A stretch of 48,580 bases of DNA, from positions 1 to 48,580 of the forward strand of contig JAGNBF010000055.1 of NCBI GenBank assembly GCA_018004935.1, read 5' to 3'. The stretch is from Chloroflexota bacterium. GTDB taxonomy: Bacteria; Chloroflexota; Anaerolineae; Promineifilales; Promineifilaceae. The notes beneath the pieces were generated by a model. It was not told the DNA's origin. It saw only the letters and a program-made list of their open reading frames with translations, and ran no database searches. Positions 1 to 48,580 of the stretch are shown here, in pieces (the stretch's first letter is position 1; each line of letters starts with the position of its first letter). The position numbers were made by a program, and so were the translations under genes.

Positions 1-128
1 ATTGGTGTATTGGTGTATTGGTGTATTGGTGTATTGGTGTATTGGTGTATTGGTGTATTGGTGTATTGGTGTATTGGTGTATTGGTGTATTGGTGTATTG
101 GTGTATTGGTGTATTGGTGTATTGGTGA
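1..128. repeat. 8-bp minisatellite (ATTGGTGT)n
   Basis: An essentially perfect head-to-tail array of the octamer ATTGGTGT, about 16 copies, beginning at or before the window edge and ending at ATTGGTG near 127. Because 8 is not a multiple of 3, it reads as an open frame with an 8-residue period, but there is no ribosome binding site and nothing protein-like after it. I regard it as non-coding simple-sequence DNA. Degenerate inverted copies lie at 427-456. Confidence 0.95.
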
Positions 129-239
129 GTGTTCTGCACCATGAGGGTTATCTTAATTTGGTTGATAAATGTTGTCAATATTGATTCATTAATCAATGCA
201 TGATAAAATACCCCACATACCACCCCTAAGTAATCGTTC

Positions 240-400
240 GTTTTTAACTTAGCGGTCTGGAGACTATACTGTTCGCGGTCAGTAGTTGCGCTTTTGTGCT
301 GTGGCCGGTCTCCTGACCGAGCCACCAAACTGTGACCGCGCTGAGTATAGAGACTGGAGACTGACAAACCTTTAGTCTCCAGTCTCCCTGTAACCGTGAA
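240..400. repeat. Dispersed family A palindrome plus a 13-bp inverted repeat
   Basis: Positions 301-326 carry an imperfect palindrome (GTGGCCGGTCTCCTGACC, then GAGCCACC) that recurs near 6427, 30471, 32065, 32297 and 38301. Just downstream GAGACTGGAGACT (350-362) is perfectly inverted at 374-386. No gene is seen in 129-467. The stretch upstream of the citrate synthase gene consists of these repeats. Confidence 0.8.
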
Positions 401-426
401 CTTGTTTCCAAACGATTACTAATAAT

Positions 427-456
427 CAATAACCAATAGACCAATACACCAATATA
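427..456. repeat. Degenerate inverted copies of the ATTGGTGT unit
   Basis: The stretch reads as CCAATA units with variable spacers (CCAATAGA, CCAATACA, CCAATATA). This is the reverse complement of the 1-128 minisatellite in decayed form. It ends only about 11 bp before the ATG of the downstream gene, so it occupies the place where a ribosome binding site would be expected. Confidence 0.7.
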
Positions 457-467
457 CCCTATTTCCC

Positions 468-1688
468 ATGCCCACCTTCCTCACCGCCGCCGAAGCGGCC
501 GCAGAACTCGACATCTCTCTGCCCACGTTGTACGCCTACGTTAGCCGGGGGCTGATTCGCTCCGAGCCGGGTGATAATCAGCGGCGGACGCGCCGTTACC
601 ATGCCGAAGATGTGGCCCGGCTGAAGGAGCGACAGGCCAACCGGCGTGATCCGGGGCGGGTGGCGGAAACGGCTCTGCATTATGGCTCCCCCTTGCTGGA
701 ATCGGCCCTGACGTTGATTGACCAGGGGCGGCTGTATTACCGCGGCCGCGATGTCCTCACCCTCGCCCAATCCCACAGCCTGGAACAGGTGGCCGCCCTG
801 TTGTGGGCCGACGATCTGACCGCTCCCCTCTTTCACCGGGCACAAACTCGTTTATCACCCTTGCTGGAACAACTGCGGCCGCAACTCCAACCCCTCGCCC
901 CCATCGAACAGTTCCTGGCCTGGCTCCCCATCGCGGCCGCGAGCGATTTCGCCGCCTATGACCTCTCGCCCGATGGGGTGCGGCAGACGGGGGCACGTAT
1001 TTTGGATGGGTTGGTAGGGCTGGCGACGGGGCAACCAGTGGGGGAAACTGGCATCGGCCCGGCGTTGCAACAGGCGTGGTTGCCAGAGGTGGGAAACGCG
1101 GCCGCGTGGCTCAATTCAGCCCTCATCCTCTGCGCCGATCATGAGTTAAACATCTCCGCTTTTACCGCCCGGTGTGTGGCTTCGGCGGGGGCGACGCCGT
1201 ATGGCGTGGTACAGGCGGGGCTGGCGGCGTTGCAGGGGAGCAAACATGGTGGCTACACCGCTCGTGTCGAGGCGTTGTTCCGCGAGGTGCAGACCCCGGC
1301 GCAGGCCCAGGTGGTGCTGACCGGGCGGTTGCGTCGGGGGGAAGGTATCCCCGGGTTTCATCATCCGTTGTATGCGGAAGGGGACCCACGCGGCCGCGAA
1401 CTGCTCCACCTCGCTCATCAGGCTAACCCCGACTCCCTGGCCCTGGCTCTGGCCCACACCATCCGCGACACAACTTTTTCCTTGTTGGGACACCATCCCA
1501 CCCTGGATTTCGGCCTGGTGACGCTGTGCCAGACCCTCAACCTGCCCCCCGGAACGGCCATCACCCTCTTTGCCCTGGGGCGAACCGTCGGCTGGATCGG
1601 TCACGCCCTGGAACAATACGCCCGCGACGAACTCATTCGCCCTCGCGCCCGATATGTGGGGCCAGTAGCGGGTCAGCATTTCAGCTAG
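468..1688 (+). CDS. Citrate/methylcitrate synthase-family protein with N-terminal MerR-like HTH
   Basis: 406 residues. Residues 4-55 form a MerR/excisionase-type winged-helix segment (AAEAAAELDISLPTLYAYVS, then a basic RRYHAEDVARL stretch). Residues from about 65 onward are a citrate synthase fold. The catalytic triad can be placed: His260 in SKHGGYT, His299 in GFHHPLYAEGDPR and Asp347 in TLDFGLV. The family condenses oxaloacetate (or an analogue) with acetyl- or propionyl-CoA. HTH-fused versions are known as a subfamily, but their function is not settled. The ATG at 468 has no clear Shine-Dalgarno. The sequence before it is decayed minisatellite. The gene carries six GCGGCCGC palindromes, in all three frames. 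It could be a regulator that senses a CoA ester, a real synthase, or both. Confidence 0.88.
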   Translation: MPTFLTAAEAAAELDISLPTLYAYVSRGLIRSEPGDNQRRTRRYHAEDVARLKERQANRRDPGRVAETALHYGSPLLESALTLIDQGRLYYRGRDVLTLAQSHSLEQVAALLWADDLTAPLFHRAQTRLSPLLEQLRPQLQPLAPIEQFLAWLPIAAASDFAAYDLSPDGVRQTGARILDGLVGLATGQPVGETGIGPALQQAWLPEVGNAAAWLNSALILCADHELNISAFTARCVASAGATPYGVVQAGLAALQGSKHGGYTARVEALFREVQTPAQAQVVLTGRLRRGEGIPGFHHPLYAEGDPRGRELLHLAHQANPDSLALALAHTIRDTTFSLLGHHPTLDFGLVTLCQTLNLPPGTAITLFALGRTVGWIGHALEQYARDELIRPRARYVGPVAGQHFS

Positions 1689-1737
1689 TCAGCTTGTCAG
1701 CCAGCGAAACCTCTAACCCGATATGCGTAACGAAGGG

Positions 1738-1812
1738 TTCGTAAAAATATAACTTCCTGGTTTAGACCTGACAGGTTTCCGAAAACCTGTCAGGTCTTGA
1801 CGGAACTTAATC
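1738..1812. repeat. Family B repeat, copy 1
   Basis: Contains a perfect 34-bp palindrome-type hairpin at 1764-1797 (AGACCTGACAGGTTTCC and its complement). It is flanked by GTTCGTAAAAATATAACTTC on the left and GACGGAACTTAATCTTTT on the right. Copies recur near 6487, 8217 and 39749. The hairpin lies 76 nt after the citrate synthase stop and could act as a weak transcript end, but it has no U-tract. Confidence 0.9.
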
Positions 1813-2200
1813 TTTTGCAGGCCCTTAAATCAGCCATTCTCAACTCGACATTGGTGGTGTTCGTTTCTGCCAGAGAACGCACAGCCTGGAAAGGCTGTGC
1901 TACGTCCAGAGGTCGCGTACAAATTCGGCAAAATCGAATTCTCAATTTGGCCTGAGCCTCTAAGAATGAGCATTGTTACGTCTGGCGTAATAAAATCAGG
2001 TGATGATCCAATCGTTCCGATGTAGGAACTGTTTGCAGGGAAGGTATTTATACAAGTGCCCAAACTTATTCCCACGCTCTGCGTGGGAATACCATCTGGG
2101 ACGCTCTGCGTCCTACACGACGCAGAGCGTCGTAGGGAGCATTCCACGCAGAGCGTGGAACGAGTGCCTGTAGAGATACCAGGGAAGAATCCCAAAAGGG
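1813..2200. other. Gene-free stretch with REP-like hairpins
   Basis: No gene seen. Positions 1870-1900 hold a CACAGCCTGGAAAGGCTGTG hairpin also found near 5930 and 6175. Positions 2068-2162 hold a cluster of short hairpins built on ACGCTCTGCGT and its complement, for example ATTCCCACGC/GCGTGGGAAT at 2068-2077 and 2081-2090. Related CGCTCGGCGT-type hairpins occur at 16110-16175. These look like REP-type palindromes. They are not a CRISPR array because the spacing and units are irregular. Confidence 0.6.
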
Positions 2201-2207
2201 GAAAATC

Positions 2208-2709
2208 ATGTCACGACCTGTTAATCAAATGCGCCCGGTTCATCCGGGGGAAATCCTGCGTGAAGAATATCTGGCCCACTTGGTCTGAGTGTGAATGCAC
2301 TGGCCCTGGCCCTCGGTGTACCAGCAACACGTATCCATGAAATTGTCAAAGAACGCCGCACTGTTACCTAGGGCGATTGCATACTCACCAGAATGAACCC
2401 ATCCCCCTACCCCCCTTCCCAAAATCGGGAAGGGGGAACCCACTCGGCGGGTAAAATCGGGGCAAAGCCCCGATTTTACCCGCCTTAAAAAACTCCCCGC
2501 CCCTGGGGGCGGGGTTGGGGGTGGGGGAAATCCGAATATGCAATCGCCCTGGCACTGTTACCCCTGACACTGCCGCCCGCCTGGCCAAGTACTTTGGTGG
2601 TGATGCGGCTTCCTGGCTGGCGTTACAGGCCATTTACGATCTTAAAACCTTGCCCACACGCCAGGAGATAGAGCAAAAAGTTCCTTCACGCGAACCAGCG
2701 GTTGCTTAA
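2208..2709 (+). pseudogene. higA: higA-like antitoxin gene, frameshifted and split by an insertion
   Basis: The start MSRPVNQMRPVHPGEILREE is the classic HigA (XRE-type antidote) N-terminus, after a good AAAAGGGG Shine-Dalgarno at 2194-2201. A stop is met at 2285 because one base is missing. In the next frame the protein continues as GLSVNALALALGVPATRIHE up to KERRTVT. A 183-bp repeat element then intervenes. The homologous reading resumes at 2555 as TVTPDTAARLAKYFGGDAAS and runs to TAA at 2709. Removing the element with one copy of its 11-bp duplication joins KERRTV to TPDTAAR exactly in frame. No higB toxin is visible next to it. The call rests on motif recognition and is strong. The gene is doubly inactivated. 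Confidence 0.88.
2369..2551. mobile_element. MITE-like element inserted in higA (copy 1)
   Basis: Perfect 14-bp terminal inverted repeats AGGGCGATTGCATA lie at 2370-2383 and 2537-2550. The element is flanked by the direct repeat GCACTGTTACC at 2358-2368 and 2552-2562, which I read as the target-site duplication. The body is several nested palindromes, including a GGCGGGTAAAATCGGGGC hairpin at about 2449-2483 and a CCCCGCCCC/GGGGCGGGG hairpin at about 2496-2515. It encodes no transposase, so it would need one in trans. Inverted relatives are at 9934-10115 and 10129-10218. Confidence 0.88.
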
Positions 2710-2716
2710 AAAAGGG

Positions 2717-2777
2717 GTTTTCGGGATTTCGTGGGGTACGGGCAACCCTTGTGGTTGCCCACCCTGAACAGGCACAA
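2717..2777. repeat. Family D repeat, partial copy
   Basis: TTTCGGGATTTCGTGGGGTA followed by a GGGCAACC/GGTTGCCC hairpin, ending GAACAGGCACAAG. Longer relatives occur at 6047-6170, 8385-8492 and 41282-41468. It sits between the dead higA and the promoter of the next toxin-antitoxin pair. Confidence 0.75.
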
Positions 2778-2791
2778 GATTACTCCTTTTA

Positions 2792-2820
2792 TTGCTTAAT
2801 CCATGATGGCTATGTACAAT
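2792..2820 (+). promoter_or_regulatory. Promoter of yefM-yoeB
   Basis: TTGCTT at 2792-2797 and TACAAT at 2815-2820, separated by 17 bp. This is a good sigma70-type promoter about 35 bp before the yefM start. The -10 element overlaps the first TGTACA operator half. Confidence 0.7.
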
Positions 2821-2830
2821 TATTTGTACA
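2813..2830. promoter_or_regulatory. YefM-type operator: two TGTACA palindromes
   Basis: TGTACA hexamers occur at 2813-2818 and 2825-2830, 12 bp centre to centre, overlapping and just after the -10 box. In E. coli the YefM antitoxin recognises paired palindromes with a TGTACA core. The same core in the same place here points to conserved autoregulation. Confidence 0.72.
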
Positions 2831-2854
2831 AATTTCAACCAGGAGACAGGTCTA

Positions 2855-3106
2855 ATGGAAGCGATTAATTACACAGTTGTACGTCAGACATTGGCCCCCA
2901 TTATGGATCGGGTATGTGATGATCACACCCCTATCATCATCACCCGGCAAAACAACCGCTCTGTGGTAATGATGTCCTTAGCCGATTACGAGGCGTTAGA
3001 GGAAACGGCTTATCTGTTGCGTAGTCCCAAGAATGCCAAACGGTTATTGGAATCCATTCTGGAACTGGAAAGTGGCGGGGGTACGGAGCGGAGTCTGGTC
3101 GAATGA
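2855..3106 (+). CDS. yefM: Type II antitoxin, Phd/YefM family
   Basis: 83 residues. The N-terminal half (NYTVVRQTLAPIMDRVCDDH, then TPIIITRQNNRSVVMMSLAD) is the DNA-binding dimerisation core of YefM. The acidic C-terminal tail (residues 55-83) is the toxin-neutralising part. An AGGAGA Shine-Dalgarno at 2841-2846 sets the start. The stop overlaps the start of the next gene (ATGA at 3103-3106), so translation is coupled. Upstream are a promoter and paired TGTACA operators. YefM binds and neutralises YoeB and represses the operon. Confidence 0.95.
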   Translation: MEAINYTVVRQTLAPIMDRVCDDHTPIIITRQNNRSVVMMSLADYEALEETAYLLRSPKNAKRLLESILELESGGGTERSLVE

Positions 3107-3357
3107 GGCTTATATTCTCCGAAAATGGCTGGGAAGATTACCTTTATTGGCAAAAGACAGACAAAAAAATAGTGATTCGTATCAATGCGCTCATTAAGGA
3201 AATTCAACGGGATCCTTTTACCGGAACGGGCAAGCCAGAACCCCTTAAATATGGCCTGACCGGTTATTGGTCGCGGCGCATAGATAGCGAACATCGTATT
3301 GTTTACAAGGTGATAGGCGATGATTTGTTGATTGCCCAACTGCGCCATCATTATTAG
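3103..3357 (+). CDS. yoeB: Type II toxin, YoeB mRNA interferase
   Basis: 84 residues, the same length as E. coli YoeB. The known active residues fall at identical numbers: Glu46 (KPEPLK), Arg65 (SEHRIVY), His83 and Tyr84 at the very end (LRHHY). YoeB is a RelE-fold RNase that cleaves mRNA in the ribosomal A site when freed from YefM. The reading frame is complete and all catalytic residues are present, so the pair looks functional, unlike the dead higA just upstream. No GCGGCCGC sites occur in this pair. Confidence 0.95.
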   Translation: MRLIFSENGWEDYLYWQKTDKKIVIRINALIKEIQRDPFTGTGKPEPLKYGLTGYWSRRIDSEHRIVYKVIGDDLLIAQLRHHY

Positions 3358-3374
3358 TGGATTAGCCAAACCCA

Positions 3375-4001
3375 ATGAATCTTCTCTTTCGCCCTGCCCG
3401 CCCTGAAGATGCGACCCAGGCTGTGCCGTTGATTTATAGCTCCGGCCCGGCGGCGTTTGAATATGTGTTTACCGATATGGTGCGGGGCAACGCGGCCGCG
3501 TTCCTTCACAGTGCCTTCAGCCAAAAACGGGGCGAATTCGGCTATGCCAATCACACCGTTGTGGAGGTAGATGGGCAAGTCGTGGGGATTGGGGCCACCT
3601 TTAGCGGCCGCGATAGTTTCCGGTTTGGGGTTGCGGCCGCACGGCAAATCCTGGCTTTTTATGGCCTGGTGCGCTGTTGGCGGGTCATCCGGCACGGGTT
3701 ACAGGTGGAGAAAGTGGTGCAACTGCCCACCCCGGGGATGCACTACCTGGCGCACCTGGGGGTGGCTCCGGCCTGGCGCGGGCAAGGGATTGGGGCGCGG
3801 CTGATTGATTATTTTCTGCAACAGGGACAAGAGATGGGACGGAGTGCGGCCGCGCTCGATGTCGCCGTTACCAATCCCCGCGCCCAGGCGTTGTACGAAC
3901 GGCTGGGTTTCATCGTAACCCAAGAACTCCCATCCAGCCTCAAAAACGAACATACCACCGTCGCCGCCCACCGGCGTATGGAAAAACAGATAATCCCCTA
4001 A
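3375..4001 (+). CDS. GNAT-family N-acetyltransferase
   Basis: 208 residues. The acetyl-CoA-binding motif A is clear at residues 127-148 (HLGVAPAWRGQGIGARLIDY, with RGQGIG at 135-140). It is followed by the typical ALYERLGF segment near 177-184. The fold transfers acetyl from acetyl-CoA to an amine or a protein. The substrate cannot be told. It starts 17 nt after yoeB, so it may be co-transcribed with the toxin pair. RelE-type toxins and GNATs are both common in accessory islands, but here the gene carries four GCGGCCGC sites like resident genes do. The N-terminal 120 residues are longer than in minimal GNATs. Confidence 0.88.
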   Translation: MNLLFRPARPEDATQAVPLIYSSGPAAFEYVFTDMVRGNAAAFLHSAFSQKRGEFGYANHTVVEVDGQVVGIGATFSGRDSFRFGVAAARQILAFYGLVRCWRVIRHGLQVEKVVQLPTPGMHYLAHLGVAPAWRGQGIGARLIDYFLQQGQEMGRSAAALDVAVTNPRAQALYERLGFIVTQELPSSLKNEHTTVAAHRRMEKQIIP

Positions 4002-4051
4002 CCTGGATAAACCAGGATCAAAAAGACGTTACACAGAGGGTCACAGAGAAG

Positions 4052-4099
4052 GCAGAGAGGTTCACAGAGTTTTATGGCTTTCTCTGTGAACCTCTCTGC
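4052..4099. terminator. 18-bp inverted repeat, possible transcript end
   Basis: GCAGAGAGGTTCACAGAG at 4052-4069 is perfectly inverted at 4082-4099, with a 12-nt loop. Around it are decayed copies of CACAGAG. There is no U-run, so this may be a palindromic repeat that doubles as an RNA 3' end after the GNAT gene. The rest of 4002-4335 holds one GCGGCCGC (4156-4163), a GT-rich stretch at 4217-4232, and a weak TATAAT (4291-4296) before the next gene. Confidence 0.5.
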
Positions 4100-4335
4100 A
4101 TTTTCTCCGTGTATCTCTGTGCAACTTCTTTCTTGAAATCGCACCTGTAACTGGCGCGGCCGCGTCTACGGCTAGCTCTGCTTATTTTACAAAACTGACT
4201 TCTTTGCAGAACATAGGTGTGTGTGGTGTGTGGTGCGTAAAATATTGAGGGTTAATTCTGTCCCTGTTCTGAGGAACGGGTAACAGGCGTTATAATTGCT
4301 TATCATACCACCCCATTACCCAAGAGGAACCAGCC

Positions 4336-5583
4336 ATGAATATTGAACAAGCCAACCAGATTGCAGTCGAACGGATGATGACGGCGCGGCCGCAACTCAC
4401 CACCATCGCGGCCGCACGCGACGTCATCCCCGGAATGCGCGACAACCTGCTCCTGCACGCCGGGCCACCCATCACCTGGGAACGCGCCTCTGGCCCCATG
4501 CGCGGCGCGATTGTCGGTGCGCTCATCTTTGAGGGCTTAGCCACCGATTGGGCCAGCGCCGAACAGCTCGTCACCTCTAATCAGATTGACCTGGAACCGT
4601 GCCACGAACACAACGCCGTCGGGCCGATGGCCGGGGTCACGTCCGCCTCAATGCAGGTGTACGTCATCGAAAACATCACCCACGGCAACAAAGCGTACTC
4701 CAACCTCAATGAAGGGTACGGCAAAGTCCTGCGTTACGGTGCGTACAGCCCCGAAGTCCTGGCTAAACTGCGCTGGATGAATGAGGTGATGGCCCCCACC
4801 CTGGCCGAGGCTCTCGCCATGATGAACGGTGGCCTGGACATCCGCGCCCTGCTGGCCGAAGCCCTGCACATGGGAGACGAAGGGCACAACCGCAACAAAG
4901 CTGGCTCCTTCATCTACGCCACCCGGCTGGCTCCCTTCATTGCCCGCACCAGCACCAGCAGTGAAGAGAAAAGCAAAATCCTGCAATTCCTGGGCGACAA
5001 TGCCCTCAGCGTGTTGAACCCGGTTATGGCCGCCTGCAAAGCGATGGCCGACGCCGGGCATGGGGTTGAAGGCAGTACCATCATGTCTACAATGGCTCGT
5101 AATGGCACCGATTTGGGTATTCGTGTCAGTGGGATGGGCAATCGTTGGTTCACCGGCCCGGTCGGTACACCCGATGGCCTTTACTTTTCCGGCTTCACCG
5201 CCGCCGATGCCAGTGGCGACATTGGGGACAGCACAATCACGGAGACGGCGGGCATTGGCGCGTTTGCGATGGCGGCCGCGCCTGCTATCGTTACCTTCAT
5301 CAGCGGCACACCCCAGGACGCCATCAACGCCACCCTGGAGATGTACGAAATCACCACCGCCGAACACACCGCCTTCACCATCCCCTCGCTCGATTTTCGC
5401 GGCACCCCCGTCGGGGTAGACATCCGCAAAGTGGTCGAACTGGGCATCACCCCCCGCATCAACACCGGCATCGCTCACAAGGATGCCGGGGTAGGACAGG
5501 TAGGCGCGGGTTTGGTGCGGCCGCCGATGAATGTGTTTGAAGATGCGTTGGTGGCGTTTGCCGAAAAATATCTCGAAGAATGA
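4336..5583 (+). CDS. DUF1116 protein (AllG/YlbE/YahG-like)
   Basis: 415 residues. Signature segments of DUF1116 are present: CHEHNAVGPMAG at 89-100 and MGDEGHNRNKAG at 179-190. The family includes AllG (YlbE) of E. coli, one of the subunits assigned to oxamate carbamoyltransferase in allantoin catabolism, normally beside AllF (FdrA), AllH and a carbamate kinase. None of those partners is in this window, so the gene stands alone and its reaction here is open. AAGAGGAA at 4321-4328 is a good Shine-Dalgarno for the ATG at 4336. No signal peptide, so probably cytoplasmic. Carries four GCGGCCGC sites. Confidence 0.82.
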   Translation: MNIEQANQIAVERMMTARPQLTTIAAARDVIPGMRDNLLLHAGPPITWERASGPMRGAIVGALIFEGLATDWASAEQLVTSNQIDLEPCHEHNAVGPMAGVTSASMQVYVIENITHGNKAYSNLNEGYGKVLRYGAYSPEVLAKLRWMNEVMAPTLAEALAMMNGGLDIRALLAEALHMGDEGHNRNKAGSFIYATRLAPFIARTSTSSEEKSKILQFLGDNALSVLNPVMAACKAMADAGHGVEGSTIMSTMARNGTDLGIRVSGMGNRWFTGPVGTPDGLYFSGFTAADASGDIGDSTITETAGIGAFAMAAAPAIVTFISGTPQDAINATLEMYEITTAEHTAFTIPSLDFRGTPVGVDIRKVVELGITPRINTGIAHKDAGVGQVGAGLVRPPMNVFEDALVAFAEKYLEE

Positions 5584-48053: not shown

Positions 48054-48580
48054 TTATTTCTCCTGTGCCGTGACAATGTTTTTCACTCCTGGTACTTGTC
48101 GTAAGGCAGTCACCAGTTCGGCACTGTAATGAGTAGATTGATTAGGAAAGGTCATGCGTTGCCCCGTCTCCCGGATAACCAGAGTAAACGAATCGGCCCC
48201 GTTGTGTTGGCTGGCAATGCGATGCACCTGCCGGATGGTGTCGCGCCAGTTGGATGCGGCCGCGATTTCCACAATGATGTGACGAGGGGCAGGAGACTGA
48301 GAGACTGAGAGACTGGAGACTGGAGACTGATCAATTGTGAATTGTGAATTGTGAATTGTGAATTGTGAAGGTTCACCGGCCACTGCTGACTGCTGAGAAC
48401 TGAGTTCCTCTGAGTTCCTACGAGTTCCTACGAGTTCCTGCTGACTGCTCACTGCTGACTGCTCACTACTAACGGCCAATGGCTCGCGGCTAACGGCTCG
48501 CGGCTCACTCCCCTCAAAATTCGGCGGCGGTGGTGGCGGGCTGTAACGTGGCGGGGTGGGTTCGGCGATACGGGGGGGAG
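48054..48580 (-). CDS. dnaE: 3' end of a likely DNA polymerase III alpha subunit gene (partial)
   Basis: The frame is open from the window edge (48580) to TAA at 48054, so the 5' part is missing. The last 75 residues (HIIVEIAAASNWRDTIRQVH, then RIASQHNGADSFTLVIRETG, MTFPNQSTHYSAELVTALRQ, VPGVKNIVTAQEK) match the C-terminal domain I know from long DnaE chains of this phylum (W+..R..H.L...G.D....FP...T....EL...L). Before it lie a Pro-rich stretch and an in-frame patchwork of simple repeats (about 48290-48510). DnaE copies the chromosome as the replicase core. The identification rests on the tail only. One GCGGCCGC site (48256). Confidence 0.55.
   Translation of the reverse strand, partial: PPRIAEPTPPRYSPPPPPPNFEGSEPRAVSREPLAVSSEQSAVSSQQELVGTRRNSEELSSQQSAVAGEPSQFTIHNSQFTIDQSPVSSLSVSQSPAPRHIIVEIAAASNWRDTIRQVHRIASQHNGADSFTLVIRETGQRMTFPNQSTHYSAELVTALRQVPGVKNIVTAQEK
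48290..48510. repeat. Cluster of in-frame minisatellites in the dnaE-like linker
   Basis: Adjacent short arrays: GAGACT(GA/GG) units at 48294-48331, ATTGTGA (7 bp, about five copies) at 48332-48369, GAGTTCCTAC (about 10 bp, three to four copies) at 48401-48438, CTGACTGCTCA-type units at 48439-48470, and CGGCTCG/GCGGCTAA units at 48472-48508. None has a stop in the coding frame. Confidence 0.85.

Follow-up and report, generated by a model that had tools for sequence, protein, structure and literature searches.

Patchworks of 7- and 8-bp tandem repeats lie in frame in dnaE1 and other core enzyme genes of a Chloroflexota bacterium

The DNA stretch analysed here (the window, 48,580 bp) is the entire contig C7 of a 7.98 Mb, metagenome-like draft assembly with 229 contigs. 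At its right end a minus-strand reading frame (48578-48054, 174 aa) runs off the contig. The remainder of the gene lies on contig C81, where an open frame of 1581 aa with a PF07733 match (Pfam) encodes a DnaE1 protein that reaches the contig end. C81 ends in the same PPRIAEPTPPRY linker that is found in the window at 48539-48578 (minus strand). The 40-bp ends of both contigs are about 80% identical, and the residues with which the window frame opens, PPRIAEPTPPRYS, match those at the end of the DnaE1 frame on C81, PPRIAEPTPPRYT. Since linker and frame match, C7 and C81 most likely abut within the repeated linker. Judged by eye, the DnaE1 part on C81 (minus strand, approximately 1-4693) also contains, ahead of its HAADYA motif, a stretch that resembles an intein (CLPGDVEV...VHNS).

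The last domain of the protein is encoded within the window at 48069-48287 (minus strand, residues 98-170). A profile of the C-terminal domain, obtained from 13 relatives with the window protein left out, found these residues at E=3.8e-25 with the database size set to 10,000. AlphaFold, applied to the window protein alone, provided no secondary structure for residues 1-99, followed by a domain of b-a-b-b-a-b topology with a pLDDT of about 80-90. The six best PDB matches of this model in Foldseek were all Pol III alpha (4iqj, 2hpi, 3e0d) with E values of 0.03-0.28, none passing E 0.001. A PDB sequence search with the C-terminal domain found nothing, and Pfam gave no match above cut-off for the window piece of DnaE1. 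The window gene is dnaE1, encoding the replicative Pol III alpha subunit. The original prediction of a probable DnaE at this end, to be confirmed by extending the gene upstream, is borne out by the remainder of DnaE1 on C81, by the profile match and by the Foldseek matches to Pol III alpha. A search for DnaE was positive in 56 of 59 genomes.

Directly preceding the C-terminal domain in the protein, Tandem Repeats Finder detected five or six arrays with units of 7, 8, 10 and 14 bp at 48292-48506. The first is a mixed 7/8-bp array of GGAGACT and GAGACTGA (48292-48330), which reads CAGTCTC-CAGTCTC-CAGTCTCT-CAGTCTCT-CAGTCTC on the coding strand. It is followed by 5.3 copies of AATTGTG with 100% matches (48333-48369), by a 7-bp array of ACTGCTG (48382-48396), by a 10-bp array of CTGAGTTCCT and GAGTTCCTAC (48400-48444), by a 7/14-bp array of CTGCTGACTGCTCA (48438-48467) and by a degenerate 7/14-bp array of CGGCTAACGGCTCG (48469-48506); the program describes 48382-48396 and 48438-48467 together as 7/14 bp, CTGCTGACTGCTCA. 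Of all six frames, the coding one (minus strand, 48510-48290) is the only one that stays open through 48290-48510, and stop triplets number 0, 2 and 8 in the three phases of the coding strand. The original prediction was of five or more different tandem arrays that follow one another without a stop in the linker before the last DnaE domain, and both makeup and position were confirmed. Array growth may, as also proposed there, vary the length of this linker between cells or strains. The linker spans 80-211 aa in 24 measurable relatives, three of which (L034, L038, L040) carry other 7-bp repeats in it. In DnaE1 the arrays would occupy a disordered linker that joins the OB-fold part to the C-terminal domain and was variable to begin with.

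Words of the dnaE1 linker also occur outside genes at the other end of the window, as had been noticed: at 350-386 one of them forms an inverted repeat (350-362 and 374-386), a 13-bp hairpin with a folding z-score of -3.74. No fold was obtained for 120 bases of the dnaE1 array itself (z -0.43). The contig begins inside a further array, (ATTGGTGT)15.9 at 1-127 (Tandem Repeats Finder), whose inverted partner, a degenerate CAATA(C/A)CC array at 421-458 (plus strand), ends shortly before an ATG at 469, where inspection by eye shows no obvious ribosome-binding site. Upstream arrays with an inverted partner farther out were likewise seen at three other loci (L062, L096, L091), and such pairs could form large hairpins. 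Near gene starts, at 421-458 as well as at L045, L058, L068, L069, L070, L085, L087, L094 and L096, CCAATAC, CACCATT or CTCGC words reach the start codons, mostly in one orientation. An orientation bias of the CCAAT words upstream of genes was considered and dropped, as 8 sense and 2 antisense cases are too few to claim it.

The abundance of such arrays was determined in a sample of 63 stretches of the genome (1,160,111 bp), comprising the window, C81, part of C72 and the loci L045-L104. The sample contained 43 exact arrays of period 7 and 45 of period 8, while a Markov-1 shuffle of it gave 0 and 1, respectively, this being its only array at any period. Other short periods were rare (four arrays of 6 bp, one each of 9 and 10 bp, three of 12 bp, two of 13 bp, none at 1-5 or 11 bp). 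Longer periods were present at 14 bp (9), 15 bp (11), 16 bp (18), 21 bp (11) and 24 bp (15), with a few at other periods of 18-30 bp. The distinct words numbered 20 of seven bases and 19 of eight. Most bases of the sample come from contigs picked for carrying one word (C36, C74, C83, C84, C116, C150, C165, C207, C229). In the 28 stretches that were not picked in this way (443,210 bp) we counted 16 strict 7/8-bp arrays, i.e. 36 per Mb, compared with 72 (100 per Mb) in the rest. Among arrays of at least 40 bp, 28 were located in coding cores, 17 at gene edges and 32 between genes; the corresponding numbers for the stretches not picked by word were 3, 4 and 10. In the whole genome, GAGACTGGAGACT occurs 65 times and its reversed control not once. 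Related word families are found in intergenic DNA, ahead of gene starts and, keeping the frame, within loops and linkers of core enzymes, both Pol III alpha proteins among them. The dnaE1 patchwork belongs to a population of 7/8-bp arrays that is spread over the genome: the patchwork inside the replicase gene is real, but dnaE is not singled out, the repeats affecting many genes.

Within genes the arrays respect the reading frame. For the 28 coding-core arrays of at least 40 bp the coding frame was open in every case, compared with 14 of 56 other frames on the same strand and 24 of 84 frames on the opposite strand; for the 32 intergenic arrays 45% of the frames were open. Summed by phase, stop triplets in the coding arrays numbered 0, 62 and 50, i.e. 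0 in frame versus 112 off frame, where the zero follows in part from the choice of the set, for which open reading was one criterion. Some of the core arrays sit in upstream extensions of stop-to-stop frames and not in proteins. With the set chosen in part by open reading, these counts support the original prediction that keeping the frame implies selection.

Proteins other than DnaE1 that carry arrays in frame, either inside Pfam domains or between them, are DnaE2, GH42, MoeA, a molybdopterin oxidoreductase, a GT4 glycosyltransferase, a polyketide synthase, an S-methyltransferase/MetH, PurK, an AMP-binding ligase, a PLP decarboxylase, an aminotransferase/HisC and a kinase protein. Enzyme names that go beyond the Pfam names are our interpretation, and two of the eight proteins of the first Pfam set had no match. 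In one polyketide-synthase-like protein (L094, 11144-19999) the arrays lie in linkers between tandem carrier domains. Three of the enzymes were compared with their relatives. The insert of about 29 aa formed by the first MoeA array is absent from the 21 displayed relatives, with conserved flanks; one of these relatives (L272) carries a short CPEPVEGGV piece of its own in this loop, whose CPEPVEGG we take to resemble another dispersed repeat. Similarly, the first DnaE2 array is absent from 12 relatives with conserved flanks. Two conserved motifs of HisC are separated by 110 aa in this genome, corresponding to an insert of about 100 aa, and by 6-32 aa in the 21 of 22 aligned relatives that have both flanks, the remaining one (L349) being partial; in two relatives of one genus this loop holds a different insert, also repeat-like. 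For the second arrays of DnaE2 and MoeA the loops vary in the relatives as well, making these weaker cases of insertion. By these alignments, some of the core-enzyme arrays are evidently inserts that are missing from related bacteria.

The arrangement of the words provides insight into how the arrays may have spread. The 7-7-8-8-7 bp composite of the window is seen again in nearly the same form in DnaE2, MoeA, the AMP-binding ligase, PurK and other proteins. Its 16-bp 7-to-8 junction occurs at 31 distinct sites from 30 loci and the 8-to-7 junction at 6, while reversed controls were absent (0). The reading phase of the composite is the same in 8 of 10 array-bearing genes; HisC uses another phase, and the polyketide synthase two phases, neither of them the common one. 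Because one five-unit layout recurs in unrelated genes, mostly in one phase, the sequences suggest copying between loci together with local slippage, filtered by the reading frame. We therefore favour, with a probability of roughly 70%, genome-wide 7/8-bp arrays that were copied, lengthened locally and kept in genes by frame selection. Arrays and multi-word composites would be copied between loci by a templated process, after which slippage or unequal recombination at each site would make the copies longer and more uniform. In genes, selection would retain stop-free copies with a length that is a multiple of three wherever a disordered peptide is tolerated. The genome yielded neither an enzyme nor a target-site signature that would point to copying. 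For mobilisation of the RAYT/REP type no link was seen: the Y1 transposase domain (Y1_Tnp) has one weak partial match here (E 1.1e-6), while 22 of 29 genomes exceed the cut-off.

A more far-reaching variant, which we regard as possible but tentative, holds that the composites form a so far undescribed class of dispersed elements, made of 7/8-bp units, with two states, a noncoding hairpin and a stop-free direct repeat, that were actively copied from gene to gene and rewrote loops of core enzymes in frame, both polymerases included. Among the 31 composite sites none of the 17 coding ones has an inverted arm within 60 bp upstream, compared with 7 of the 14 noncoding ones. The coding label of these sites was set by hand: a crude coding score calls the dnaE1 site noncoding due to its short flanks, leaves two sites doubtful (L303, L317) and finds one antisense-coding (L326), which was counted as noncoding.

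Alternatively, the arrays could result from purely local replication slippage, with chance seeds extended at unit lengths of 7-8 bp that suit the polymerase and nothing copied between loci; the shared layouts could in this case stem from convergent slippage. A polymerase-footprint hypothesis for heptamers is cited in the literature on cyanobacterial repeats as far as considered here (PMC4692102). Other genomes speak for it as well. The array (GGAGACT)3GG is present in at least 115 stretches from many phyla, and period 7 also leads among the other arrays near it (58 cases) in the 80 of these 115 loci that were checked. These loci share 1 of the 20 seven-base and 0 of the 19 eight-base words with this genome. 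For this reason we rejected the wide occurrence of this array as evidence that a repeat vocabulary is exchanged across phyla. Against slippage alone stand the multi-word composites that unrelated genes share almost unchanged, down to the 7-7-8-8 order of the units, the asymmetry of 31 to 6 between the junctions and the common phase in 8 of 10 genes. On balance we consider a purely local origin rather unlikely.

Small samples of relatives contained 7/8-bp arrays in three genomes (five in G001, two in G005, and three in G023, two of 7 and one of 8 bp) and none in G007 or in the outgroup G048; one relative sample without any such array amounted to 100 kb. The words of the relatives differ from those of this genome, which, like the empty 100-kb sample, speaks against the reading that we favour. 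Across 400 genomes of the phylum, GGAGACTGGAGACTGG was found in 10 and its reversed control in 1. The reversed control pattern occurs 8 times in one genome of the same phylum (G393), which seems to have a heptamer family of its own.

We consider it very improbable that the arrays are contingency loci, under selection because changes in their length switch or tune DnaE1 and other proteins. Gain or loss of a 7- or 8-bp unit would indeed shift the frame, and the DnaE1 linker varies between 80 and 211 aa among relatives, but the targets are housekeeping enzymes (HisC, MetH, PurK) in which loss of frame should be harmful. Least credible is an assembly or binning artefact: C7 has an array at its start and a repeated linker at its end, and the draft of 229 contigs is metagenome-like, but the words are found on tens of contigs, many genes having open frames and conserved sequence on either side, and because they recur in frame on so many contigs, an assembly error, against which the original prediction had advised checking, is unlikely to have created the patchwork, copy numbers being uncertain.

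With the cyanobacterial STRR and heptameric SSRs, in the published descriptions considered here (PMC4692102, PMC2670836), the arrays have 7-bp units, genome-wide dispersal and hairpin-forming copies in common. They differ from these in mixing 7- and 8-bp units in about equal numbers, in forming multi-word patchworks and in lying in many cases in frame within enzyme domains; heptameric SSRs are described as strongly biased to noncoding regions (PMC4692102). The TAACTGA repeats of Beggiatoaceae are likewise dispersed heptamer arrays, many of them just upstream of start codons, and the cases within ORFs covered in that account either extend over a gene end or belong to ORFs that share no similarity (PMC4679880). 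The TAACTGA class is not among the 20 seven-base words of our 1,160,111-bp sample. Rickettsia RPE, as portrayed in PMC2229807, are likewise inserted both between genes and, keeping the frame, into genes of conserved proteins, but they are stem-loop elements of 105-146 bp, whereas here we find variable tandem patchworks, and the piece from dnaE1 does not fold. Chloroflexus aurantiacus (Chloroflexi) heads the bacterial list of satellite-rich genomes in a survey whose sections considered here concern satellites in general and do not describe in-frame invasion of enzymes (PMC6749651). In open-licence PMC papers we found no description of in-frame heptad/octad patchworks in core enzymes. Such patchworks look new, while heptamer repeats and in-frame palindromes were already known.

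Core enzymes that bear arrays represent a natural experiment on the tolerance of proteins towards random-looking peptide, and equally on the spread of 7-bp repeats, which have long been noticed in bacteria without a known mechanism. The composites shared by unrelated loci make copying versus local slippage directly testable. For annotators they are a warning that an odd insert rich in Ser and Gln in a genome of this kind is repeat DNA and not a domain.
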